Shown one piece after another: positions 2,310-55,703 of a stretch of 64,000 nucleotides of DNA; position 1 is the stretch's first letter, and each line of letters opens with the position of its first letter. The notes under the pieces are model-generated. The model did no database searches. It saw nothing but the letters and a program-made list of their open reading frames with translations, and was not told the origin of the DNA. The DNA is from Pseudanabaena mucicola FACHB-723. GTDB taxonomy: Bacteria; Cyanobacteriota; Cyanobacteriia; Pseudanabaenales; Pseudanabaenaceae. Both the position numbers and the translations under genes were made by a program. The stretch spans positions 1-64,000 of the forward strand of contig NZ_JACJQB010000006.1 of NCBI RefSeq assembly GCF_014696385.1, read 5' to 3'.

Positions 2310-2377
2310 AGAGTGGCGCTATCTAGCCGCATTTCCATACATTGTATAGGTTAATTGGAGACTAGTGCTTTAGAATA

Positions 2378-3388
2378 ATGTTTTCAAGCATGAACTTTGC
2401 AACTTCGATCGCAGCTATGGTAGAAGTAGTGACCAACCAATCCGAGCCACAGATTATTTCAAGCAATGCTATTGTCGCTGAGGGCTTGAGTAAGACCTAT
2501 CGCACTGGTTTTTGGTTAAATCAAAAAATTAGTTCTTTACAGGATTTTTCATTAACCATTCCGAATGGTGAGACCTTTGGTGTTTTGGGACCAAATGGTG
2601 CAGGTAAAACCACGTTACTAAAAATTTTATTGGGCATCGTCCAACCCACTTCAGGTACAGGAAAAATTTTAGGCTATCCCCTTGGCGATCGCACCGCGAA
2701 GCAATCGATTGGTTATCTGCCCGAAAATGCCTATTACTACGACTATCTAACAGGCTGGGAGTTACTAGACTTTATTGGTAGTTTATTTGGTGTTGAGGCA
2801 TCCTTACGTCGCCAGAGAATTGCGGATCTGTTAGATCTGGTGGGGCTTTCACAGTCAGTAGCCCGCAAAAAGCAGTTGCGCCAATATTCTAAGGGCATGG
2901 TGCAACGGATTGGAGTTGCTCAAGCCTTGATCAATGATCCTGACGTGGTGTTTCTTGATGAGCCAATGTCGGGACTTGACCCCGTTGGTCGCTATCAGGT
3001 GCGCGAAATTATTTTGATGCTCAAAAATCAGGGCAAAACGGTATTTTTCAACAGTCACATTTTGTCGGATGTGGAGCTAATTTGCGATCGCATTGGCATC
3101 TTAAACAAAGGCGAACTCGTTGCCATGGGGACTTTGAATGAGTTACTCGGCACAGAACAGTCTTATCAAGTCAGTGGTCATGGTGGCTCTGAGGCAGAGT
3201 TAAAACCTTGGCTAGAGCATTTGACCTTTCAAGGTGATACTTGGCATGGTCAATTAGCTAAAGACTTACCAGATTTTCTCAATTTCTTATCCGGCATCAA
3301 TGCCAAGGCAATTTCTATTGAGCTAGCCAGACAAACGCTCGAAGAATTTTTTATTGAGCAAATCAAAGCTTCACGGCACAAAGACTAA
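2378..3388 (+). CDS. ABC transporter ATP-binding protein (ABC-2 type)
   Basis: A 336-residue ABC ATPase similar in layout to the first one in the window but with an N-terminal extension of about 30 residues. Walker A is GPNGAGKT (71-78), the signature is the degenerate YSKGMVQR form (170-177) typical of ABC-2 exporters, and Walker B is FLDEPMSGLD (192-201); the H-loop is in FFNSHILSDVE. Residues 265-336 form the variable C-terminal domain. The start may be one of several nearby ATGs (2378, 2390 or 2417); the extension is not needed for the fold. No permease gene adjoins it. A hairpin between it and convergent cimA probably ends both transcripts. Confidence 0.9.
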   Translation: MFSSMNFATSIAAMVEVVTNQSEPQIISSNAIVAEGLSKTYRTGFWLNQKISSLQDFSLTIPNGETFGVLGPNGAGKTTLLKILLGIVQPTSGTGKILGYPLGDRTAKQSIGYLPENAYYYDYLTGWELLDFIGSLFGVEASLRRQRIADLLDLVGLSQSVARKKQLRQYSKGMVQRIGVAQALINDPDVVFLDEPMSGLDPVGRYQVREIILMLKNQGKTVFFNSHILSDVELICDRIGILNKGELVAMGTLNELLGTEQSYQVSGHGGSEAELKPWLEHLTFQGDTWHGQLAKDLPDFLNFLSGINAKAISIELARQTLEEFFIEQIKASRHKD

Positions 3389-3395
3389 ACCAAAG

Positions 3396-3420
3396 CATAG
3401 AGTTGCGGCGCAACTCTATG
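3396..3420. terminator. Hairpin between convergent genes
   Basis: Perfect inverted repeat CATAGAGTTGC with a 3-base GGC loop, between the stops of the ABC ATPase and cimA. It could act on both strands. It has little T-tract and belongs to the set of GCG-core hairpins found across this window. Confidence 0.6.
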
Positions 3421-3431
3421 TTTTAGCGATT

Positions 3432-5054
3432 TTATGCTTTGGCGATTTCCATCATATGTCTGACTGCTGATAACAAACCATATTCAAAACCTTCGGCAAG
3501 TGCTTTACAAGAAGCATCAATAATATTTTGCGATACTCCCGCCGTTGACCAACGCCGCTTACCATTGCTGAATTCAATTAAGACCCTTGTTGTTGCTTTT
3601 GTGCCAGAGTCACTATTGAGAATTCGGACTTTGTAGTCGGTGAGATAGAAGTTCGCAATTTCAGGATAAAAACTAGTCAGAGCTTTGCGAAGGGCTGCAT
3701 CAAGGGCGGCGACGGGGCCATTGCCTTCGGCGGCGGTAAGATGTTCTTCATCTTTGACTAACACTTTGACTGTGGCTTGGGAATTGACTGCACCAACGGA
3801 ATGGGTGACATCGGATGTGGAATAGACATGAAAACTGCTGATCGTAAAAAATTTGGGGCGATCGCCTAAGGCTTCACGAACTAGTAGCTCAAAACTTGCT
3901 TCGGCGGATTCAAACTGATAGCCAATCTGTTCAAGATCTTTAGTGATTTGCAAAATTTGCCGACAGGCGGGATCTTCTTTGCGGAGGCAAATGCCAAAGG
4001 TTTCGACTTTGGAGATGACATTGCTGATTCCTGCTTGCTCAGAGATGACAATGCGACGATTGTTGCCAATACTTTCAGGAGTAATATGCTCGTAGGTAAG
4101 GGGATTGCGTTGGACAGCGCTGACATGGATGCCTCCCTTATGGGCAAAGGCAGAAGCCCCCACAAAAGGTGCGTGATCGTCGGGGGCAAGGTTGACGATT
4201 TCGCTAACTTGGCGAGAGGTGGCTGTGAGGTTTAATAACCTATCGGCAGCGATGCAGTCATAGCCCATTTTGAGCTGCAAATTGGGGATCAAGGTACAGA
4301 GATTGGCATTACCACAGCGTTCACCATAGCCATTAATCGTTCCCTGCACCATGGTTGCGCCATGCTGAACAGAAGCAATTGCATTGGCAACGGCTAGCCC
4401 CGCATCATTGTGGGTATGAATGCCAATTTGCGGCGAGGTGCTACCCCATTCTCTAAGAGATGCATCGACCAATTCTGTAATTTGAGAAATTTCATCGGGC
4501 AGCGTACCGCCATTGGTGTCGCACAGGATAAACCATTCTGCACCAGCATCAAAGGCGGATTTTAGGGTTTTGAGCGCATACTCAGGATTATTTTTGTAAC
4601 CGTCAAACCAATGCTCGGCATCGTAAATAAGTCTGCGATCGCAATTTTTGAGATAGGCGATTGTATCGCTGATCATGGCAAGATTTTCTTCGAGGGTTGT
4701 GCGTAAACCTTCGATGACATGGAGATCCCAAGATTTGCCAAAAATGGTAATCCACTTAGTTGCTGCGCCGACAATGGGAACAAGCATTGGATCATCTTCA
4801 GCCTTGATCCCTGCGCGACGAGTTGAGCAAAAGACGACTAATTCCGCGTTGCGGAGAGGATGATCTTGCATCCGCCGAAAGAATTCGCCATCCTTAGGAT
4901 TAGCCCCTGCCCAACCACCTTCGATAAAGGCAACCCCCATGCGATCGAGGCAATCGGCAATCCGCATTTTATCTTCCACAGACAGCGATAAACCCTCGCG
5001 CTGTGTACCATCACGAAGGGTCGTGTCATAAATCGCAATTTTTTGAGTTTCCAT
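3432..5054 (-). CDS. cimA: (R)-citramalate synthase
   Basis: Condenses pyruvate with acetyl-CoA to citramalate, the first step of the threonine-independent route to isoleucine known in cyanobacteria. The 540-residue protein has the HMGL-like TIM barrel with YDTTLRDGTQREG at the N-terminus (substrate and metal site), the metal-binding IHTHNDAGLAVAN segment near residue 210, and the C-terminal regulatory dimer domain of LeuA/CimA proteins. The N-terminal wording, with VAFIEGGWAGANPKD, fits the CimA-related group rather than LeuA. The ATG at 5054 is chosen because the longer open frame only adds residues overlapping tatC. It lies 19 bp after tatC on the same strand and is probably cotranscribed. 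Confidence 0.92.
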   Translation of the reverse strand: METQKIAIYDTTLRDGTQREGLSLSVEDKMRIADCLDRMGVAFIEGGWAGANPKDGEFFRRMQDHPLRNAELVVFCSTRRAGIKAEDDPMLVPIVGAATKWITIFGKSWDLHVIEGLRTTLEENLAMISDTIAYLKNCDRRLIYDAEHWFDGYKNNPEYALKTLKSAFDAGAEWFILCDTNGGTLPDEISQITELVDASLREWGSTSPQIGIHTHNDAGLAVANAIASVQHGATMVQGTINGYGERCGNANLCTLIPNLQLKMGYDCIAADRLLNLTATSRQVSEIVNLAPDDHAPFVGASAFAHKGGIHVSAVQRNPLTYEHITPESIGNNRRIVISEQAGISNVISKVETFGICLRKEDPACRQILQITKDLEQIGYQFESAEASFELLVREALGDRPKFFTISSFHVYSTSDVTHSVGAVNSQATVKVLVKDEEHLTAAEGNGPVAALDAALRKALTSFYPEIANFYLTDYKVRILNSDSGTKATTRVLIEFSNGKRRWSTAGVSQNIIDASCKALAEGFEYGLLSAVRHMMEIAKA

Positions 5055-5073: not shown

Positions 5074-5877
5074 CTACTTACCCATTGCCTTAACCAAGAA
5101 AATGCCGCCGAAGTACAAAATACCCACCGCACCAGCCAACAAACTCTGAGTCATTGGATCGGTCGATGGCGTTAATACTGCACCTAAAATCACTGCGCCT
5201 AGGACAACGTAGCGCCAACCTGCCAACATGCGAGCTGAGTTAACAATTCCTGTCATGGCTAATAATGCTTGGATGACTGGGATCTGGAAAGCTAAACCCG
5301 TACTGAATAGTAGCAATAGGACAAATTCAAAGTAACGATCAATTGACCAGAACTGCTCCACGACATCACCACCATAGCTGATGAAGAAGTTGAGAGCGGC
5401 GGGGATCAATAGCTCGTAGGCAAAGACAATGCCAAGTACAAATAAAATGCTAGAACCAAAGACAATGGGTGCAATCGCCCGTTTTTCTTTGCGAGTCAGC
5501 CCTGGCAGGATAAATCGCACAATTTGGTAGAGGATGGCAGGACTTGCCACCAGTAAACCACTATAGCCAGCCACCTTAATCGACACGAAGAAATATTCTC
5601 CAGGGGCAAGCTGCAAAAACTTTACGCCTTGGGCTGGGATTTCTAAGAGGGCAACAATTTTATTAACAAAGGCAAAGCAACCAATGATCGCGACAACTAT
5701 GGCAATTAGGGCGTAAAAAATTCGCGATCGCAATTCCTCAAGGTGATCAAAGAGTGACATCTCTACATCTTCAATGGCATCCTCCTCGATTGCTGAGACA
5801 TCTAGATTGTCTATGGCTTCGGCTTGTCCATTCGCCAAATTCTTGGATTCTTCTGCTTCACTTATCGTCTCTAGCAT
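5074..5877 (-). CDS. tatC: Twin-arginine translocase subunit TatC
   Basis: Membrane core of the Tat pathway, which exports folded proteins across the thylakoid and plasma membrane by recognising twin-arginine signal peptides. The 267-residue product has an acidic N-terminal tail of about 40 residues, then the family start [14 protein letters not shown], and six membrane segments; the [12 protein letters not shown] and [10 protein letters not shown] regions are conserved family stretches. The acidic tail is longer than in E. coli TatC, which is usual in cyanobacteria. It is followed closely by cimA on the same strand. TatA/TatB genes are not in this window. Confidence 0.95.
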
Positions 5878-6250
5878 GATGTCGTTACTAAAATCTACTT
5901 GTCGATTGCCTAACCCGATCTTTGAAAAACTATCAACTAATCTAGTCTAAGTATATTGATACTATAGCTGTTGCCAGTCTTGTTAGGAAACAAACCCAGA
6001 ATGCAAGTTGCGCTGCAACTTACATTCTGGGTTTGTAGGTAAGATAGGCCGCATTAATGCCGCATTAGTACAGATCGCGGCAATTATGTTAACTTCCTGA
6101 TATTTAACCGTAAAATCCTGATGGCGATGTTATATTGCTTACTAGGTAGTCAAATAATTTAGATGTCTCTGGATATAGCAATCTCATAAATTCTTGTCGC
6201 TTGCTATGGATGTCTAAAAATAGACTGTGTATAGGTTTCAGGAAAAAATT
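5878..6250. other. Intergenic region with a repeat hairpin
   Basis: About 370 bases between divergent tatC and a secreted-protein gene. It holds the shared left module AGCTGTTGCCAGTCTTGTTA (from 5967) and the hairpin at 5992-6033. The remainder is AT-rich and presumably carries both promoters. No coding sequence or RNA gene was recognised. Confidence 0.6.
5992..6033. repeat. Hairpin repeat flanked by AAACCCAGA/TCTGGGTTT
   Basis: Near-perfect inverted repeat: AAACCCAGAATGCAAGTTG, a GCGC core, then the complement. The outer AAACCC/GGGTTT arms recur in other hairpins of this window (about 6691, 10582, 25843, 31158, 37924). The 30 bases to its left match the left flank of the 10561 repeat. Confidence 0.65.
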
Positions 6251-6649
6251 ATGATGATCACATGCAAATTTTTAGGCTTATTCGCGATCGCAAGTGGCGT
6301 ATTTGCTTTAAATCCAGCATCTTTAAATGCTCAAATTGCGATCGGTAACGCTCAATCCAACCAGTTATCTCCTGCTCAACAAATCCTCCAAGATATGCAA
6401 CAGAGCAATGCGCCTGCGGTGGGTGGTGGCAGTATGCAAATACTCAGGTTTACAGGTGCAGAGGTGTCGCTTGCTCCTTTAGAAGGTTTGGATCGCCTCT
6501 TCAATTGGGAAATTAAGGAAGAAAGTGGTATCACATCTGAGAAGACCTTGGGGGATCGTGTTGAAGAATTTAAATTAAATCAACGGCAGCGAATTGTTTC
6601 TGATAGTGAAATTTTTAATGCCATCGATCGCCTCAAACGCGAAAATTAG
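6251..6649 (+). CDS. Small secreted hypothetical protein
   Basis: A 132-residue protein of unknown function. It begins with a clear Sec signal peptide (MMITCKFLGLFAIASGVFAL followed by an A-x-A type site near LNAQIA), so it is likely periplasmic or thylakoid-lumenal. The mature part is hydrophilic, with a basic-acidic mixed helix at the C-terminus ending RLKREN. The ATG at 6251 is chosen over the GTG at 6227 because AGGA lies 8 bases upstream and the signal peptide then starts properly. Its neighbours do not suggest a role. Confidence 0.7.
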   Translation: MMITCKFLGLFAIASGVFALNPASLNAQIAIGNAQSNQLSPAQQILQDMQQSNAPAVGGGSMQILRFTGAEVSLAPLEGLDRLFNWEIKEESGITSEKTLGDRVEEFKLNQRQRIVSDSEIFNAIDRLKREN

Positions 6650-6690
6650 CCAAGTCCTGACTTCATAAAAAAGTTTGCTTTGCAAACTTT

Positions 6691-6743
6691 CCAGAGAAAA
6701 TTTTAAAAGCGGCGCAAAGCGCCGCTTTTAAAATTTTCTCTGG
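6691..6743. terminator. Long hairpin after the secreted-protein gene
   Basis: Inverted repeat with arms CCAGAGAAAATTTTAAAAGC and complement around a GGCGCAAAGCGCC core, followed by GGGTTT. It sits between convergent genes, and a smaller hairpin AAGTTTGC/GCAAACTT precedes it at about 6670-6689. Likely bidirectional terminator and a member of the GCG-core hairpin set. Confidence 0.6.
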
Positions 6744-6758
6744 GTTTAAATGTTGTAT

Positions 6759-8246
6759 TTATAGCTTCGCTTGACGATATAGTTCACGGGCATAGTCTGT
6801 CCATGTGCCTTGTCCCCAATAACGGAAACAACTAGTTTGCACCAAGAGGTTATATAGCAGTGCGTGCTGATAATCTGGACTCTTGGTAATTGCAGGATTT
6901 TGAGCAACGAGAGCATCATATTTAGCATGAAAATCGGCACTGAGTTGATTCATCGGTTCCAAGACATTCTCATAGCCATTGACCCAACTCATACTATTTG
7001 TCCATGATGCGCCATCCATATGGAACTGATGGTCACTCAATTTGAGTTCGCTAATGGCTTGTTCTACGGCGGCGGTACTCATAGCATTGCGATCGCAAAT
7101 TTGCTCAACCTTTTGCCAAACCCTATGTTGTTGCACTGCCTGCACGGCTGGATATTCCAAAGGATTTACTCCCGCCGCCTCAATCATTTCCAGATATTCA
7201 GTTCCATTTAAGCCTACAGTTCCTGATGTGCCACGCCCATTAGTTTTCAACTGATCCCAGATCAATGGATAATCGCGAGGAAACTCATTCATCATTACGC
7301 CGCCATTCTCACCATCAGCAATTTGCGAAACTAGCGAAGGGACAGCCACATTGCCAATCATCTGGCGACTACGACCTTTAGTCTCATGATAGGGCTGCAT
7401 TTGGGCGACCAGTTTCGTGTCAGAACCTTGGGTTTTGATCAGCACCGTGATACTAATTGATTCGCCCTGAGAATTCATCGCCACTAGACGATTGGGAATA
7501 TATTTCTGATCTTGGCTTAGTCCTGAGCCATCAAGGTTTTCTACCGAATGTTCCTGCACCATCAACCAACGATAGCCGCATTCTTTGAGCGCTTTGATGT
7601 ATTCGTACAGGGTGTCAGGATGATTGGGAAGGTGCATTTCAGGCGGCGAAAAACCTTTCACACGCTTGAGTGCATCAATACCAAAAGTAGAAGCAAAATG
7701 ACTCTGCCATGCTTGCATATGTAACTTCAGATCAGGAATGGGAGTCGAGGGGATCACCGCATGACTCCACATAGTGCCAAGCCATTCCACATAAGGTTGA
7801 TATTTGCGATCGCAAGTAATTCGCTTCAAATTATCCAAAATGTCATGGCGTTGCATCTGCTGCAAACCCCAGAGTAAATTTCCTGAATAGTCCAGCATAA
7901 TCCGAGGATTACAGCCTTGCTCAACTAGTTGAGGTATAAAGTCCCCCATGCGGCTATAGCACCATGCAAACACCGACGCATTGTGATTATCCCCATCGCC
8001 TTGATGTTCAAACATATTTTGCAGATTACAAATTAGCGACCCATTCGCTCCTGCGGGAATGGTGGGCTGGTGCATATGCAAAGCACAGGCGAAGGCAGAG
8101 GTGATTTCCTCAAGTCGCAAATTATGGTTACTGGAATTGCGATCGTAAAATACGGGTGCATCTTCCTGCACGGCACGTTGAATTACGTCTTCATTTCCAC
8201 AAATATCAGGAAAAGCCGAGGTAACAGAGCTTGTAGCTGTAATCAA
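6759..8246 (-). CDS. Glycoside hydrolase family 57 protein
   Basis: A 495-residue cytoplasmic protein with the GH57 opening motif HMHQP (57-61) and long stretches typical of the family (YSGNLLWGLQQM, GFSPPEMHLPNH, the latter spanning a conserved ProGlu). GH57 includes alpha-amylases, 4-alpha-glucanotransferases and branching enzymes that act on storage glucan; which reaction applies here cannot be read. It is shorter than the usual branching enzyme of the family. The N-terminal 50 residues are weakly conserved. It is a single gene between two hairpin-bearing spacers, convergent with the upstream secreted-protein gene. Confidence 0.85.
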   Translation of the reverse strand: MITATSSVTSAFPDICGNEDVIQRAVQEDAPVFYDRNSSNHNLRLEEITSAFACALHMHQPTIPAGANGSLICNLQNMFEHQGDGDNHNASVFAWCYSRMGDFIPQLVEQGCNPRIMLDYSGNLLWGLQQMQRHDILDNLKRITCDRKYQPYVEWLGTMWSHAVIPSTPIPDLKLHMQAWQSHFASTFGIDALKRVKGFSPPEMHLPNHPDTLYEYIKALKECGYRWLMVQEHSVENLDGSGLSQDQKYIPNRLVAMNSQGESISITVLIKTQGSDTKLVAQMQPYHETKGRSRQMIGNVAVPSLVSQIADGENGGVMMNEFPRDYPLIWDQLKTNGRGTSGTVGLNGTEYLEMIEAAGVNPLEYPAVQAVQQHRVWQKVEQICDRNAMSTAAVEQAISELKLSDHQFHMDGASWTNSMSWVNGYENVLEPMNQLSADFHAKYDALVAQNPAITKSPDYQHALLYNLLVQTSCFRYWGQGTWTDYARELYRQAKL

Positions 8247-49429: not shown

Positions 49430-50095
49430 GTGAGCGAAACATTTGCATCTTTGAAAGAGCAACTAGCTATGGATGACATGGGACTTCGGATGAAAGCCAT
49501 TCATGCTAGTCGCTCTCTCTCATTAGCTGAGCGATTTGAATTACTAGTAATCGCTGCTGCTGATCCCTACGCTCGTGTCCGTTACGATGCAGTTAGCCAA
49601 ATCGGTACAGTCGGTACTGTCGATTTGCCAAAGTCTTTAGAAATATTAAGTAATTGTCTGTTAACTGACGCGGAAATTGATGTAAGGGCTGCCGCCGCCG
49701 CTTCCTTGGGCGCTCTCCAACTTACCCAGTCCTTTGACATTCTCAAAACTGCCTACGAGTCCACCAATGACTGGATGTTTCAGTTTAGTATCGTCGCTGC
49801 GATCGGTGAATTGGGCGATGCTCAGGGTTTTGACTTTCTTGCGGAAGCATTGCAAAGCCCTAATGAGTTAGTCAAAATTGCGGCAATTGGTTCATTAGGC
49901 GATTTAGGTCAACCTGAAGCTGTGGATTTACTTTTACCCCTGATTGAGTCTGAAGATTGGCAAGTACGCCATCGCGTTGCTCAGTCCTTGGCGCAACTCG
50001 GTGGTGATCGGGCTAAGGTAGGTTTAGAAAGGCTTGCTAATGATCCCATGCCTCAAGTCTCCGAAGCAACTCAATCATTTTTAGAATCTATTTAA
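49430..50095 (+). CDS. nblB: HEAT-repeat protein, NblB-like
   Basis: A 221-residue protein composed of about six HEAT/PBS-lyase-type repeats (DPYARVRYDAVSQIGTVG, AEIDVRAAAAASLGAL, LVKIAAIGSLGDLGQPEA, WQVRHRVAQSLAQLGGDRAK). It resembles NblB, which is needed to degrade phycobilisomes in nutrient stress, and more distantly the CpcE/F bilin lyases. The first 20 residues are not repeat-like. The start is GTG. Assignment to NblB instead of another HEAT protein is by overall resemblance. Confidence 0.75.
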   Translation: MSETFASLKEQLAMDDMGLRMKAIHASRSLSLAERFELLVIAAADPYARVRYDAVSQIGTVGTVDLPKSLEILSNCLLTDAEIDVRAAAAASLGALQLTQSFDILKTAYESTNDWMFQFSIVAAIGELGDAQGFDFLAEALQSPNELVKIAAIGSLGDLGQPEAVDLLLPLIESEDWQVRHRVAQSLAQLGGDRAKVGLERLANDPMPQVSEATQSFLESI

Positions 50096-50506: not shown

Positions 50507-50640
50507 AATAATTCTCCGATAAAAACTTAGATTTGGCAAAACCAAAAATTCAACCCTATTAGCTTATGCTGCATTTGCAAGCTAATCAAAAAATCTGAAG
50601 GATTTAGTAAGAATTTCGTTAGTGATCTATAAGTATTATT

Positions 50641-50856
50641 TTATTTAACTACGCGATAGATCAAGCATCGCTTGATATTTATACGCCTTGAGTAGAAGCA
50701 TTGCAAATTTCCAACTAATTTCTCGTAAGGTGGTGGATTTGTGAATGGATTTTCTCTTAGTATGGCAACTAGCTCTTTGGTTTTCTCAAATAGACCAATA
50801 CTTTTCAATTTATTTAAATCTTCTTGGGCTTTTTTACTGAAGATAACTTCCCACAT
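50641..50856 (-). pseudogene. Txe/YoeB-type toxin, C-terminally truncated
   Basis: A 71-residue open frame whose start (MWEVIFSKKAQEDLNKLKSI), NPFTNPPPYEKLVGNLQCFY and SRRINIKRCLIYRV match the YoeB/Txe RNase fold. It stops at RVVK-TAA, about 15 residues before the normal end, so the final catalytic-site segment containing the terminal His and Tyr is missing. Probably inactive. No matching tail is readable in other frames after the stop. It starts 2 bp after the end of the yefM-like frame. Confidence 0.75.
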
Positions 50857-50858
50857 TG

Positions 50859-51107
50859 TTACAGTCCTAACTCTTGAGCGTTTACCCATTCACTTCTAGG
50901 GCTAGTCATAACTTCTTTGAGTGAGTCGATATATCCATGTATAGAGTTCAGCTAGATAGTCTCTTCTATCGCTGCCCAGTCTTCTTTAGAAATCAAAACC
51001 ACGTCATTCTCTGAGCCTTTAATCATGACGGGCTTATGATTTGCACTGACTTGGTTAATTAAATCATTAAAGTTGGCTGTTGCTTCTTGAATTAGTAAGT
51101 AATCCAT
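50859..51107 (-). pseudogene. YefM/Phd-type antitoxin gene interrupted by an in-frame TAG
   Basis: The frame from ATG 51107 gives MDYLLIQEATANFNDLINQV and SENDVVLISKEDWAAIEETI, then TAG at 50952-50954, then continues in the same frame with LNSIHGYIDSLKEVMTSPRS and WVNAQELGL to TAA, 82 codons in all. The normal family reads ...EETLYLNSIPG..., so the stop replaces one codon (probably Tyr) and no frameshift is present. A shortened 51-residue product could still bind DNA but would lose its toxin-binding tail. The toxin partner is truncated too. Confidence 0.8.
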
Positions 51108-51147
51108 AATGTTTTTCTACAATAATCAATTAATTAAACTGTAATAC

Positions 51148-51360
51148 TTATGCTGCTAGGGTTTCAAAGGAAAATCTGAGATTAGATGATTCTTGAAGGC
51201 TGTAATTAAGTTTCTCAAAACCAATTACTACACCAGATTTATTTTTCATCAAGATCACTTCATCGCCTGTTTCTTCGCAGATATATTCTTGGTTAGGATC
51301 GCCAAACCAGACGGTGAGGGTGTTTCCTAGTTTGTCGTAGTAGACTTTTACTTCTGCCAT
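51148..51360 (-). CDS. DUF2283 domain protein
   Basis: A 70-residue protein of DUF2283 (MAEVKVYYDKLGNTLTVWFG, EETGDEVILMKNKSG, VIGFEKLNYS). These small proteins are often encoded next to toxin-antitoxin genes. Chosen ATG 51360 avoids the overlap with the HicB-like gene, whose stop lies at 51366. Function unknown. Confidence 0.75.
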   Translation of the reverse strand: MAEVKVYYDKLGNTLTVWFGDPNQEYICEETGDEVILMKNKSGVVIGFEKLNYSLQESSNLRFSFETLAA

Positions 51361-51365
51361 AGTTT

Positions 51366-51587
51366 TTAAGCCACAATTTGATAAATTATGGGGCGATAAC
51401 GGGGTTTTGGAATTGTTTTGTTTTCTGCTGTGGCAGATTCTAGCCATGCGGTTTTAGCAAGAATTACTTCAGAGAGTGCTTGCTGTGGAGTTTCACCGAT
51501 CGCTGAGCAATATTTTAAATCAGGGATATCGGCAATATATGCCTCATCTTCTTCGCTGTAGAAAATGTTGATGTGATAGTCTTTCAT
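51366..51587 (-). CDS. HicB-like antitoxin domain protein
   Basis: A 73-residue protein with the HicB fold: HINIFYSEEDEAYIADIPDL and CSAIGETPQQALSEV. It lacks the C-terminal DNA-binding helix-turn-helix of full HicB. No HicA RNase gene is adjacent; a DUF2283 gene follows 5 bp downstream. The pair therefore forms a hicB-DUF2283 unit rather than hicAB, and its targets are unclear. Confidence 0.75.
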   Translation of the reverse strand: MKDYHINIFYSEEDEAYIADIPDLKYCSAIGETPQQALSEVILAKTAWLESATAENKTIPKPRYRPIIYQIVA

Positions 51588-51607
51588 GGTTGTTGTTCTA
51601 CAAGAAG

Positions 51608-52012
51608 TTACGATGTCACCCAGTTTTCAAGAGCAAGGTTTTGAACTCGATTAAATTCTTTGGTGTTGTTGGTAACTAGGGTTAGGTTTAAACTCAGGGC
51701 ATGAGCTGCTATGAGCAAGTCCATTGCACCGATGATTTTGCCCGATCGCTCTAGGGTTGCGCGGATGTCTCCGTAAATGGTTGCGGCTTGTTCGTCAAAT
51801 TGGACAATTTCTAATGGGATTAGGAATTGGTTAAGGGCGGCACGATTGCGATCGGGAAATTGGCTTTTGGCGGCTCCATATTCTAGTTCGGCTACGGTGA
51901 TGGATGAGATACCAATGTCAAAGGGGGCGATGGTTTGAAATTTTGCTAAAACGTCTTGGGGCTTACGTTTAATGATGTAAATGCAAGTATTGGTATCGAG
52001 CATATACTTCAT
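51608..52012 (-). CDS. vapC: VapC-type PIN-domain toxin
   Basis: A 134-residue PIN-domain RNase. Acidic residues of the active site: Asp6 (MLDTNTCIY), a Glu near 42 (TVAELEYG) and Asp98 (GAMDLLIAAHA). LVTNNTKEFNRV near 112 is also conserved. VapC toxins cut tRNA or rRNA and are held by VapB. It overlaps the vapB stop by 4 bp, as in typical vapBC operons. Apparently intact. Confidence 0.9.
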   Translation of the reverse strand: MKYMLDTNTCIYIIKRKPQDVLAKFQTIAPFDIGISSITVAELEYGAAKSQFPDRNRAALNQFLIPLEIVQFDEQAATIYGDIRATLERSGKIIGAMDLLIAAHALSLNLTLVTNNTKEFNRVQNLALENWVTS

Positions 52013-52242
52013 GAGAATAGCTCCTCTCTTTCTTGTAATGGAGGTTGTTCTCTAGTTTCCATAAAGTCATCTGAGAAGAGATCGAGGCTATTCCAGAGGG
52101 TTTGCCAAGGATTGTTTTTTGGGATAAGGATGATCGCGTTGCCGACTTTTTTGATGTAGACTTCTTCGCCGACTAGTTGGAATCCATCTGGTAATATGGC
52201 TAGTTGTTCGTTGCCTTGCATTCTGAGTTTGGCGGTGTGCAT
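52009..52242 (-). CDS. vapB: VapB-type antitoxin (AbrB/SpoVT-like)
   Basis: A 77-residue protein with the SpoVT-AbrB swapped-hairpin pattern (AKLRMQGNEQLAILPDGFQL, VYIKKVGNAIILIPK) and a C-terminal toxin-binding tail (TLWNSLDLFSDDFMETREQP). Translationally coupled to vapC. AGGAG lies in the leader just after an upstream stop (see 52255-52391). It likely represses its own operon. Confidence 0.88.
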   Translation of the reverse strand: MHTAKLRMQGNEQLAILPDGFQLVGEEVYIKKVGNAIILIPKNNPWQTLWNSLDLFSDDFMETREQPPLQEREELFS

Positions 52243-52254
52243 GGGTTTGTTCTC

Positions 52255-52391
52255 CTAGTTGTATTCTAAGTTAATTCTTCTAAGCCAAGCTTTGACTTCA
52301 TTTGTGAGTTCTTGGGTACTTTTTTCTCCTGTGAATGGGCGTATTGGGATTGACTCTGTGTTAGGCTTTGGCAGAGTTTCACGACCTACTC
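52255..52391 (-). pseudogene. Orphan C-terminal coding fragment upstream of vapB
   Basis: On the minus strand a 45-codon frame without an ATG reads VGRETLPKPNTESIPIRPFT followed by GEKSTQELTNEVKAWLRRIN and LEYN, then stops 12 bases before the vapB start. Its composition is protein-like and it reads like the tail of a larger gene whose front has been lost or frameshifted. Family not recognised. Confidence 0.4.
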
Positions 52392-52440
52392 ATTAGCGCT
52401 TTTGCCAGTGTTGTGACGATAAAAGGCGATCACTAAACTA

Positions 52441-53133
52441 CTAAATATTTATAAAAGACAACTTTTTTACAGGAACCTGAAAATGTGCAATTTTTAACTC
52501 TTCGGGATGGATTGAGTTTTCAAACTCTTCAGAGAAAAATGGTAGTTGCTCTGAGTATTTCTTAAACGCTGTATTGTAGAAATTTCTCAGTAAAAAAGAG
52601 ATGAAACAATAAGGTGTCAAAGGAGCAGCTATCGGTATTCTACAATTTTGGTACTGCCCCAAAGTCAAATGGGATTTTGGATGATCTACTGGGACAAAAA
52701 CATCTTCTCGACAGTCAAAATCAAAACGAATCGGGAATGGCACAATATTTCGTGCAATGACATCAGCATACACAATATCTTCTAGATATATATCGGGAGA
52801 ATTCTGAAACTCTTCTAGGTTGGGTGATGGATAAAAGCCAAGAGAATGACGCTCTAATCCTTTAGCATTGTACAAGTAACGCATTGTGACTAAAGCCCCA
52901 TCTGGCAGCTTTGTAATGTAAGCTCTTTCAGAGGCAAGATTTTCATAAATTTCTGCATAACTATAATTTTTGAGCGCAACTGATAAATACTCCGATTGAG
53001 GAAAAGTAACCTCTACTATATTATTGTTGCCCCTTCTCACAAAGGGATAGTTCTGGTCACTTGATAAGCCAACTTCAACCAAGTAGCCAAGTAACTGCTT
53101 AATATGTGTACAGACCTCTTGAGGGCTAAGCAT
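52441..53133 (-). CDS. DUF2290 family protein
   Basis: A 230-residue soluble protein that matches the DUF2290 family by its order of conserved patches: VEVGLSSDQNYPFVRR near the start, FPSPNLEEF-type (YPSPNLEEFQNSPDIY), NIVPFPIRFDFD and HPKSHLTLGQYQNCRIPIAA followed by PLTPYCFISFLLRNFYNTAF. The family has no known activity. It overlaps the end of the helicase gene by 8 bp and so is made with it; the pairing with a helicase suggests a shared role on nucleic acid, possibly defence. Assignment is from memory of the family. Confidence 0.75.
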   Translation of the reverse strand: MLSPQEVCTHIKQLLGYLVEVGLSSDQNYPFVRRGNNNIVEVTFPQSEYLSVALKNYSYAEIYENLASERAYITKLPDGALVTMRYLYNAKGLERHSLGFYPSPNLEEFQNSPDIYLEDIVYADVIARNIVPFPIRFDFDCREDVFVPVDHPKSHLTLGQYQNCRIPIAAPLTPYCFISFLLRNFYNTAFKKYSEQLPFFSEEFENSIHPEELKIAHFQVPVKKLSFINI

Positions 53134-55294
53134 TAATCGCTATTCCTGAAGATTCTCTGAGAGCAGCTTCAATAGCAGCAATATTTTCTTCATCTAGCTC
53201 TCCTGATTTGATGGCTTCAATAACTTCTGCAACTTTCTTACCCTTACTATTCCGTTGACTACGTTCTGCGGGGGATATATCACGATGAACAATACTCAGA
53301 TGTTCTCGTTCTGCTTGTGTTGGATATCGAAAATGTAATTCATAATTTTTGCTTTGTAGAGACTTATATTCATCTATTAAACTCTGCATACCTGCACCAA
53401 TCCCAAGAACCCTAACCCATGCTTTGCTACGTGTAATTGCCGTAAACAATCGATTCCGAAGAGTGGCAAGATTCGCGGAGGTTGAATGACAATCTTGAGC
53501 ATTAATGATATAGACCATGCCTGCCTCATTACCCTTGGCGCGATAGATTCCTGTAAATGTAATTGATGGTGTATCAGATTTAAAGAATATGTCTGGATCT
53601 GTATCTACTCCAGCTAAGTGTGAATTTATTTCACTTTCTAACAACTTTTTGCGGATTGATCCAACTTTTTCTCTAGTTGTTAATGGTTCGGGATTGATAA
53701 CGACAATATCATCGTAAGAAAGTTCTTCTTGCTGTAAATTTTTCTTTATTTCATTGACAACCCAATTACTCTGTTCTTCTTCATTTTTAAAAGGAATAAA
53801 TTGAATTAAGTCATTGATTGGAGAATGATTCTCTAACCATTCTGGACTTGCATCAGGTACTCGTTGAAGAACTACATTAGAGTTATCTTGTAAATCACCT
53901 TCCTTAACTTCATACCCAATTTCTCGCCAGAGTCCAGATTCTCCAAACATTTGCACCAGCCCCGTATTTCTATTTGCAGGTGGCTGACGATAAATCCCAA
54001 AGCCTAGTGCATGGGCAGTAACCAATACAGGACGAGAATTTCGATAACATTTTTCGAGAATAATGTCACTTCTAGGTTTATCAGGTGTTGGGACAGGAAA
54101 TGTAATGCGAGGTGTTCCATCAGGATATGTACCAAATATCTCTTCAGGAGTAGATACCGAAGTTCCCGAAAGATTTTGTAATTCGTCATAGGCATAGACA
54201 AGCCTTTTGGGATCATCAAGAATCTCATAGCATAAACGCAAGAATGAAGGTGGAAAATCTTGCGCCTCATCAACAAGAATTACATCATATAATTTCTTGG
54301 CTTTGTGAGAGTGTGTTAAAGCGTTTTTACATACAGCATCAAATACATTGCCACTATTGAAATTTCTTGTAGCAGAAGGGAAATCAAAATATGGAGCATC
54401 TACAGAACGACAAAACTGATGATAAATTCCGTCACGTTCTCCACCACCAGGCGCTCCCCAAGCATTTAAAACTTTTATTTGTTCCCAATCAGGCTCATTG
54501 TCAGTTTTTTTTAGAAAATTTTCAATTAGTAGTTTTAATTGACCTTTTAAAGCCCTAGTGTTGAAAGTGACTGCTATTTTCCAATCTGGATGCTGAGAGT
54601 GGAGATATGCAGCTTTTAAGGCAAGTACAATTGTTTTGCCTGAGCCAGCAAGTCCTCTTATCCGTTGAACACCTTCAACAGTCTCAATAACTGCTTTGCT
54701 TTGCAAATTATCTAATGTAGCAATTGAATCTTCTAGTTTCTTTAATTTAGATCCTCGTGAATCTGGGTTCGTGATATGTCTTCGAGATTTACCTTTGCGA
54801 ATCGTAGATATATTCTGCAATACAGAAAGCGTTGACTTGTAATAAGCAAGGCTACTTTCATGCCAACTAAATTCTTCTAACGCTGTTTGGAGGTTATCTT
54901 CATTTACAAGAATGTATTCTGAGTCGGATGAGTAATCAGTTGAAGCTAATCCAGGTGCAAAAGAAATTGTATGGATCTTTACTACAAGATCTTGCTTCTT
55001 CATTAATTCTTTGTAAAGTGTGAGGCGAGATTTAAGCTTGTTAGCTAAGTCATCCTGACGATCCTCAAACTCTGAAATATCGGAGCCTTCAATTAGATCA
55101 AAAATAACTATTCCTTTACTAGGTGATACCCATACAGCATCAAAAGGGAAACTACCGTCAGGACTGGCAATAATTGGATAACCAATAAATAATTCTCCAT
55201 CTCCACCTTTTAGAGAAGAGAAGAAGTTTACTAAAGCGCGGCTTGAGACTGGCTTACTATTGGTTCCTTGAACAATTGATGTTGAAGATGCCAT
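53126..55294 (-). CDS. UvrD-like helicase with N-terminal NERD-like domain
   Basis: A 722-residue protein. The first 110 residues have a NERD/restriction-endonuclease-like pattern (GELFIGYPII with Glu34, FDAVWVSPSKGIVIFDLIEG with Asp52), but the usual (E/Q)xK is replaced by Asp66-Leu-Ile68, so nuclease activity is doubtful. The SF1 helicase core follows: Walker A GLAGSGKT (214-221), DEAQD (342-346), a motif III-like YDELQNLSG, motif V-like FTGIYRAKGNEAGMVYIIN (about 590) and motif VI NRLFTAITRSKAWVRVLG (about 640). Coupled to the DUF2290 gene. In a neighbourhood of toxin-antitoxin genes. Confidence 0.85.
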   Translation of the reverse strand: MASSTSIVQGTNSKPVSSRALVNFFSSLKGGDGELFIGYPIIASPDGSFPFDAVWVSPSKGIVIFDLIEGSDISEFEDRQDDLANKLKSRLTLYKELMKKQDLVVKIHTISFAPGLASTDYSSDSEYILVNEDNLQTALEEFSWHESSLAYYKSTLSVLQNISTIRKGKSRRHITNPDSRGSKLKKLEDSIATLDNLQSKAVIETVEGVQRIRGLAGSGKTIVLALKAAYLHSQHPDWKIAVTFNTRALKGQLKLLIENFLKKTDNEPDWEQIKVLNAWGAPGGGERDGIYHQFCRSVDAPYFDFPSATRNFNSGNVFDAVCKNALTHSHKAKKLYDVILVDEAQDFPPSFLRLCYEILDDPKRLVYAYDELQNLSGTSVSTPEEIFGTYPDGTPRITFPVPTPDKPRSDIILEKCYRNSRPVLVTAHALGFGIYRQPPANRNTGLVQMFGESGLWREIGYEVKEGDLQDNSNVVLQRVPDASPEWLENHSPINDLIQFIPFKNEEEQSNWVVNEIKKNLQQEELSYDDIVVINPEPLTTREKVGSIRKKLLESEINSHLAGVDTDPDIFFKSDTPSITFTGIYRAKGNEAGMVYIINAQDCHSTSANLATLRNRLFTAITRSKAWVRVLGIGAGMQSLIDEYKSLQSKNYELHFRYPTQAEREHLSIVHRDISPAERSQRNSKGKKVAEVIEAIKSGELDEENIAAIEAALRESSGIAINA

Positions 55295-55372
55295 TTCCCT
55301 GATTTCCCAGATTCTTATCCTAGATAGTTTTTATCATAACAAAACATGCTTACGTCTTTACTCAGTGGCTTT

Positions 55373-55615
55373 TCATACAGGACGGCGAATACTCTTGAAA
55401 GAAACTACATCATCTCTTTCAACTTCTTGCAAAGCCTCTTGATAGTCTTCCAAAAAATTAGGAATACTCAACAACTCCTCCGTTGCATCATTGCTTTCTC
55501 TTTCATCAAGATAAGCCAAAAAATCCGCCACCACCCGCAATCTTTCAGGTGAAAGCCTTTGTAAAATCGCCTCAATTTTCTGCACAGTATAGAGATCTTC
55601 AGCAACAGCTTCCAT
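55373..55615 (-). CDS. Small antitoxin-like protein
   Basis: An 80-residue helical protein: DLYTVQKIEAILQRLSPERL, RVVADFLAYLDERES, then an acidic ELLSIPNFLEDYQEALQEVE tail. This layout is like antitoxins of RelE/HigB-type modules (DUF2281-like), but no toxin gene is adjacent. The ATG at 55615 is preferred over 55624. Not assigned with confidence. Confidence 0.6.
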   Translation of the reverse strand: MEAVAEDLYTVQKIEAILQRLSPERLRVVADFLAYLDERESNDATEELLSIPNFLEDYQEALQEVERDDVVSFKSIRRPV

Positions 55616-55703
55616 GTGAATCACCCGAGAAACTTACTGCAAACATTTTACAAGCAATTTAGCTAACTCAGGTTGCTTTATGACTGCGACAAAAACAAAT
55701 GGT

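Follow-up and report, generated by a model that had tools for sequence, protein, structure and literature searches.

What does a helicase gene coupled to a gene of the DUF2290 family do in the cyanobacterium Pseudanabaena mucicola FACHB-723, and which of the two products acts? The pair lies in the window that we have analyzed, a stretch of 64,000 nucleotides, and its features and neighbors are collected in Table 1. A first-pass annotation of the sequence had taken the pair to be a two-gene defense module. Both reading frames run as drawn there, and the 8 bp by which it had the genes overlap is correct. A single mRNA probably encodes both the helicase and the DUF2290 protein, and the two proteins probably form a complex. 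Scans for promoters and terminators found sites no more often than scans of shuffled sequence did.

Table 1. The helicase and DUF2290 genes and the island around them (positions in the window)
Feature	Position	Strand	Remarks
Accessory island	50600-55700	n/a	Contains the pair, VapBC, HicB-like, YoeB remnant and antitoxin-like small ORF; delimited by flank homology and G+C
YoeB, 82 aa	50641-50889		Without YefM
HicB-like	51366-51587		Without HicA
VapC, intact	51608-52012		NCBIfam 194 bits (cut-off 140)
VapB	52009-52242		Partner of VapC
DUF2290 gene, 230 aa	52441-53133	minus	ATG start; Pfam PF10053 168.5 bits; PADLOC PDLC02999 309.7 bits
Overlap of helicase stop and DUF2290 start, 8 bp	53126-53133	minus	Translational coupling; median gap -1 bp in 49 pairs
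SF1 (UvrD/Rep-like) helicase gene, 722 aa	53126-55294	minus	ATG start; PADLOC PDLC03002 1023.8 bits
SF1 helicase core, residues 186-664	53303-54739	minus	All motor motifs intact; dN/dS 0.08-0.09
Helicase N-terminal domain, residues 1-185	54740-55294	minus	PD-(D/E)XK/NERD restriction-nuclease fold, catalytic residues lost
Orphan antitoxin-like small ORF	55373-55624	minus	Just upstream of the helicase; kept in all three close copies

The two families recur together well beyond this genome. DUF2290 lies directly downstream on the same strand in 49 of 78 full-length helicase homologs, with a spacing between -32 and +43 bp, and since these loci come from many phyla the adjacency is not due to chance. 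Three of the helicases that lack DUF2290 (L063, L072 and L140) stop at or near a contig end, and one that belongs to the DUF2290 branch of the tree (L144) is followed by a convergent gene instead. Evolutionary distances within the helicases and within the DUF2290 proteins are closely correlated, with a Mantel r of 0.92 for 47 pairs and a value of 0.38 for the top of 2000 permutations; by this comparison of sequences the two families co-evolve. In some other cyanobacteria (L038, L039 and L041) remnants of DUF2290 or of the helicase are found with no intact partner, those at L038 and L039 adjoining transposase-like ORFs, which indicates that the system often decays in this phylum.

Two PADLOC-DB models built for exactly this gene pair match the window proteins over nearly their whole length, 'Helicase' (PDLC03002) over residues 6-706 of the helicase and 'DUF2290' (PDLC02999) over residues 1-221 of its partner. 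An ATP-dependent helicase and a DUF2290 protein that together specifically inhibit phage T7 were described by Rousset 2022, who located them in a hotspot carried by P4-like satellites and saw them as well in prophage hotspots of Vibrio and Bacillus (PMC9122126), and the system is called 'Rst Helicase+DUF2290' in the Hachiman paper (PMC12278908). The window pair shares with the DefenseFinder system of that name both families, their order, the strand and the coupling. Judged by its sequence, the pair is a cyanobacterial copy of the known Helicase+DUF2290 antiphage system. It is therefore not a new defense candidate, as the PADLOC models and Rousset 2022 have already named the system; the proposed defense module stands, with mobility and joint evolution of the genes in its favor, under an existing name.

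The published activity against T7 belongs to an enterobacterial member, whereas the window copy is known from sequence alone. It differs from the enterobacterial system in having a cyanobacterial host, in being chromosomal and in adjoining toxin-antitoxin genes; its helicase is ~56% identical to that of an E. coli plasmid copy. In P. aeruginosa PAO1 the genes PA1372/PA1371 have been attributed to Helicase+DUF2290 by others (PMC11637435), and the cost of plasmid pNUK73 is relieved when PA1372 is lost (PMC4410645). These too are a helicase and a DUF2290 neighbor in a mobile island of low G+C; they are known through the plasmid fitness cost, and the likeness to the window pair is one of description. 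We found no mechanistic paper on Helicase+DUF2290 in the literature searched.

The distribution of the system is patchy. DUF2290 is present in 5 of the 26 genomes of the genus and 11 of the 386 of the phylum, so that the pair does not hold a universal housekeeping position. Related pairs are carried on plasmids of Nostoc, E. coli, Acinetobacter, Thioflavicoccus, Corynebacterium, Mycobacterium, Lactococcus, Exiguobacterium, Agrobacterium and Dietzia, in an integrative element of E. coli, and in prophage- and satellite-like viral contigs (IMG/VR); named phage genomes contain no homolog of DUF2290 or the helicase at threshold. The Thioflavicoccus pair (L048, plasmid pTHIMO01, 3846-6699) sits within a BREX operon, flanked by the methyltransferase and pglZ, and the Nostoc plasmid pair adjoins a restriction-modification locus. 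We reject a housekeeping or repair role on account of the patchy distribution and the mobility, and the name that the system already has is that of a defense system, not of a repair system.

In the helicase tree the window copy groups with those of E. coli, Dehalococcoidia and Bacillota, apart from the main cyanobacterial copies, with a support of 86 for the branch above the E. coli grouping. This placement suggests that the pair was gained by horizontal transfer. Among named relatives, P. cinerea FACHB-1277 and Pseudanabaena sp. lw0831 come closest to the source genome (G000), which is 3.96 Mb in size. Two Pseudanabaena genomes contain a second and very divergent lineage of Helicase+DUF2290 (L033, 7536-10381; L034, 7392-10237), where the DUF2290 is 24% identical.

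The pair resides in an island whose G+C is 38%, against 44% in the flanks, and homology to 24 relatives ends at 50095 and ~55720. The cluster of toxin-antitoxin genes that had been noted around the pair is in part intact and in part decayed. VapBC is complete and HicB-like and YoeB remnants are present, but the YefM that had been named is absent from the window. In lw0831 YoeB has 97 aa, and the locus retains the YefM and HicA that are both lost here. The pair, HicB, VapB and YoeB recur elsewhere in P. cinerea and lw0831 in shuffled order. No simple empty site was found; in the complete relatives G007 and G022 a long distance separates the two core blocks that flank the island here, which places the island at a synteny break. 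The small ORF upstream of the helicase was considered as a third component of the system, and is ruled out by copies of 81-88% identity in genomes without DUF2290.

Such company raises the possibility of a guard or toxin-antitoxin arrangement, in which one protein would be toxic and the other would restrain it until a phage product, of T7 for example, disturbs the pair. Tight translational coupling, travel with toxin-antitoxin genes and a published action that is narrow, on T7 (PMC9122126), all speak for it. Against this, both genes are long, and the conservation of an ATPase motor and of an invariant polar set is unlike that of small antitoxins; moreover DUF2290 persists at L038 and L039, with no intact helicase found upstream. 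We consider an arrangement of this kind rather unlikely.

All motor motifs of the helicase are intact. UvrD_C_2 and UvrD-helicase both score above their Pfam cut-offs, and the SF1 motifs GLAGSGKT (214-221), DEAQD (342-346), YDELQ (369-373), YRN (417-419), KGNE (587-590) and TAITR (618-622) are invariant or nearly so in a comparison of 30 relatives.

The N-terminal domain presents a different picture. A NERD-like N-terminus had been proposed, and the fold is upheld by the structure model (pLDDT 86), whose matches among PD-(D/E)XK proteins include Bax1, NucS/EndoMS, Can2, Card1 and McrC, with a best single Foldseek E of 0.004. The sequence is less accommodating. Pfam NERD has no match in the window helicase at E<=1, and has one in only 1 of 29 relatives, at an E of 0.04. 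At the columns of the E...PD...ExK signature the window protein has S, D52, D66 and I68, so that D52 is retained while D66-L67-I68 takes the place of ExK. The catalytic lysine is replaced in 48 of 49 helicases paired with DUF2290, and the acidic residue preceding it varies freely. The exception (L062, 5992-8797) has D...DxK and could still be complete; near copies of it (L063 and L133) have DxT. The sequence comparison indicates that the N-domain of the window helicase is probably catalytically dead, and the nuclease activity supposed for it is left unsupported by the loss of catalytic residues in all but one of the paired helicases.

On the strength of that loss we reject a NERD nuclease as the effector. 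The wider proposal, close to the picture of the first-pass annotation, is that the helicase is itself the effector, its N-domain cutting DNA as the motor unwinds it and DUF2290 serving as a recruiter or specificity factor. The PD-(D/E)XK fold of the model, the retention of E...PD...ExK in sister solo NERD helicases and the invariance of D52 in the main clade would fit this. It is opposed by the replaced lysine with its freely varying neighbor, by the lack of a Pfam NERD match in the window protein, and by weaker constraint on the N-domain than on DUF2290 (N-domain dN/dS 0.16-0.21 in a comparison of three Pseudanabaena copies). We regard it as very doubtful.

Outside the DUF2290 branch, the nearest relatives are solo NERD helicases, which lack DUF2290; 24 of them form one clade (SH-aLRT 99). 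In the alignment the D and ExK set is present in 18 of 25 solo helicases. Most members of the solo clade have an intact nuclease in cis; in the paired helicases it is lost, and DUF2290 is there in trans. An independent-pairs test of ExK loss against DUF2290 presence had no power, as there is essentially one split in the tree, and the link between the two must be read as a single evolutionary event rather than as repeated evidence.

DUF2290 is the most constrained part of the system. Six residues, D78, R136, H151, H155, R165 and F177, are unchanged in 47 of 47 sequences, the most distant of which have 16-20% identity, and position 138 is D or E, being D138 in 44 of the 47. Among the three Pseudanabaena copies the dN/dS of DUF2290 is 0.04-0.07, compared with 0.08-0.09 for the helicase core, so that purifying selection is stronger here than on either the core or the N-domain. 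The structure model (pLDDT 84) has no reliable fold relative in PDB Foldseek, VIA-align or BFVD searches: the highest Z against the PDB is 5.4, and Foldseek gives nothing at E<=0.001. These negatives do not prove a new fold. A DUF2290 profile gave no meaningful match to PDB sequences, and no second Pfam family common to the members was found. Because no fold is recognizable, the case for an enzyme activity is drawn from conservation. A reading of 'HLTL' as a 2H-phosphoesterase signature was dropped since its T is not conserved.

The candidate working parts of the protein are the six invariant residues and the nearly invariant D138; alternatively, the invariant residues may serve to bind the helicase or a ligand. 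Where the first-pass annotation had left DUF2290 as sensor, effector or adaptor, the invariance and purifying selection best support, without proving, the effector. On a plasmid of Acinetobacter towneri we also find a hypothetical protein (L128, 5651-6364) coupled to a very divergent helicase, which shares with DUF2290 the stretch RxDxD...HPxxH only; hhalign gives a probability of 16% and an E of 0.0015 in one comparison. The shared stretch hints at a wider DUF2290 family.

DUF2290 might alternatively be a sensor or target adaptor that binds an unusual DNA end or a protein of the phage, with the helicase blocking replication mechanically and without cleavage. In favor of this, helicase domains of the SLFN11 type bind ssDNA and may act as a block at stalled forks (PMC9482658), and the DUF2290 model matches no nuclease. 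Yet DUF2290 is the slowest-evolving part, with its invariant charged and histidine residues. Phage-protein sensors usually diversify, which counts against such a role, and we think it unlikely.

The most likely reading, to which we give about an even chance, assigns the sensing of aberrant nucleic acid to the helicase and the role of effector to DUF2290. The SF1 motor would detect DNA ends, ssDNA or stalled forks, for example, arising from a phage or plasmid, with the dead NERD-type domain in front of it acting as a scaffold or regulator. ATP-driven movement would then activate DUF2290, an effector enzyme most likely acting on nucleic acid, and infection would be stopped. The intact nuclease in cis of most solo helicases, set against DUF2290 in trans of the paired ones, and the effect of PA1372/PA1371 on plasmid cost count in favor of this reading. 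What sets off the response, and what DUF2290 catalyzes and on which substrate, we infer. If the effector reading is right, it would provide a first function for DUF2290. A more far-reaching version, which we offer tentatively and think rather unlikely, is that DUF2290 is a new enzyme family that became the trans-acting effector of a Schlafen-like sensor helicase, replacing the former cis effector and leaving a dead nuclease-fold linker. Its active site would be the invariant D, R, D/E, H, H, R set carried on an unrecognized fold.

That comparison comes from the N-domain, whose best matches among solved structures are SLFN14, SLFN5, SLFN11 and SLFN12 over residues ~383 to 583. These have Z of 8.4-9.4 over 130-139 residues, and PD-(D/E)XK nucleases follow from Z 8.0 downward. 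The regions matched lie in the linker domain, residues 354-576 in SLFN11 (PMC9482658), ahead of the SF1 helicase where one exists. At E<0.01, PF09848 (Schlafen group 3 helicase) is detected in 3 of 15 members, and there is no Schlafen among the PDB sequence matches. The domain order is reminiscent of Schlafen subgroup III (SLFN5, SLFN11 and SLFN14), where an alpha/beta linker domain precedes an SF1 helicase. Unlike that subgroup, neither window protein has a Pfam match to the Slfn core (AlbA_2-type) endoribonuclease domain, and DUF2290 is a separate protein with no recognizable relation to it. Since the Z scores may reflect no more than a shared restriction-type fold and the Slfn core is missing, this is a likeness and not membership. 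It is to the linker-helicase module of the antiviral Schlafens of humans that the proposed sensor half bears this likeness, and if DUF2290 is indeed a new trans-acting enzyme the pair would be a split bacterial counterpart of that module.

The solo NERD helicases of Leptolyngbya (L129), Haloarcula (L130) and Deinococcus (L131) have sister cores with a nuclease-fold domain in front; they differ from the window pair in keeping E(alpha1)...PD...ExK and in having no DUF2290 neighbor. On the plasmid of Haloarcula sp. CBA1115 (L130), the solo helicase with intact ExK (2371-4533) is directly followed by a DUF1837 protein and a DEAD/DEAH helicase, Hachiman-like HamAB (5247-7410).

With Hachiman (HamAB) and Gabija (GajAB) the pair shares the logic of a two-gene defense composed of a helicase and an effector. 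HamB is a Ski2-related helicase paired with the DUF1837 protein HamA; in HamAB a sensor helicase is combined with an effector whose function was formerly not known (PMC12278908). The pair differs from Hachiman in that its helicase is UvrD-type and its partner's only Pfam family is DUF2290. In Gabija, GajA is an OLD-family nuclease; DUF2290 has no match to GajA, and the helicase matches GajB models weakly. By analogy, the best supported reading is that the helicase gates DUF2290 much as HamB gates HamA, and the pair would then be a further case of a helicase-gated effector in defense beside Hachiman. To a system already known, comparison adds an N-domain that is probably dead, a candidate active site in DUF2290 and a Schlafen-like layout.
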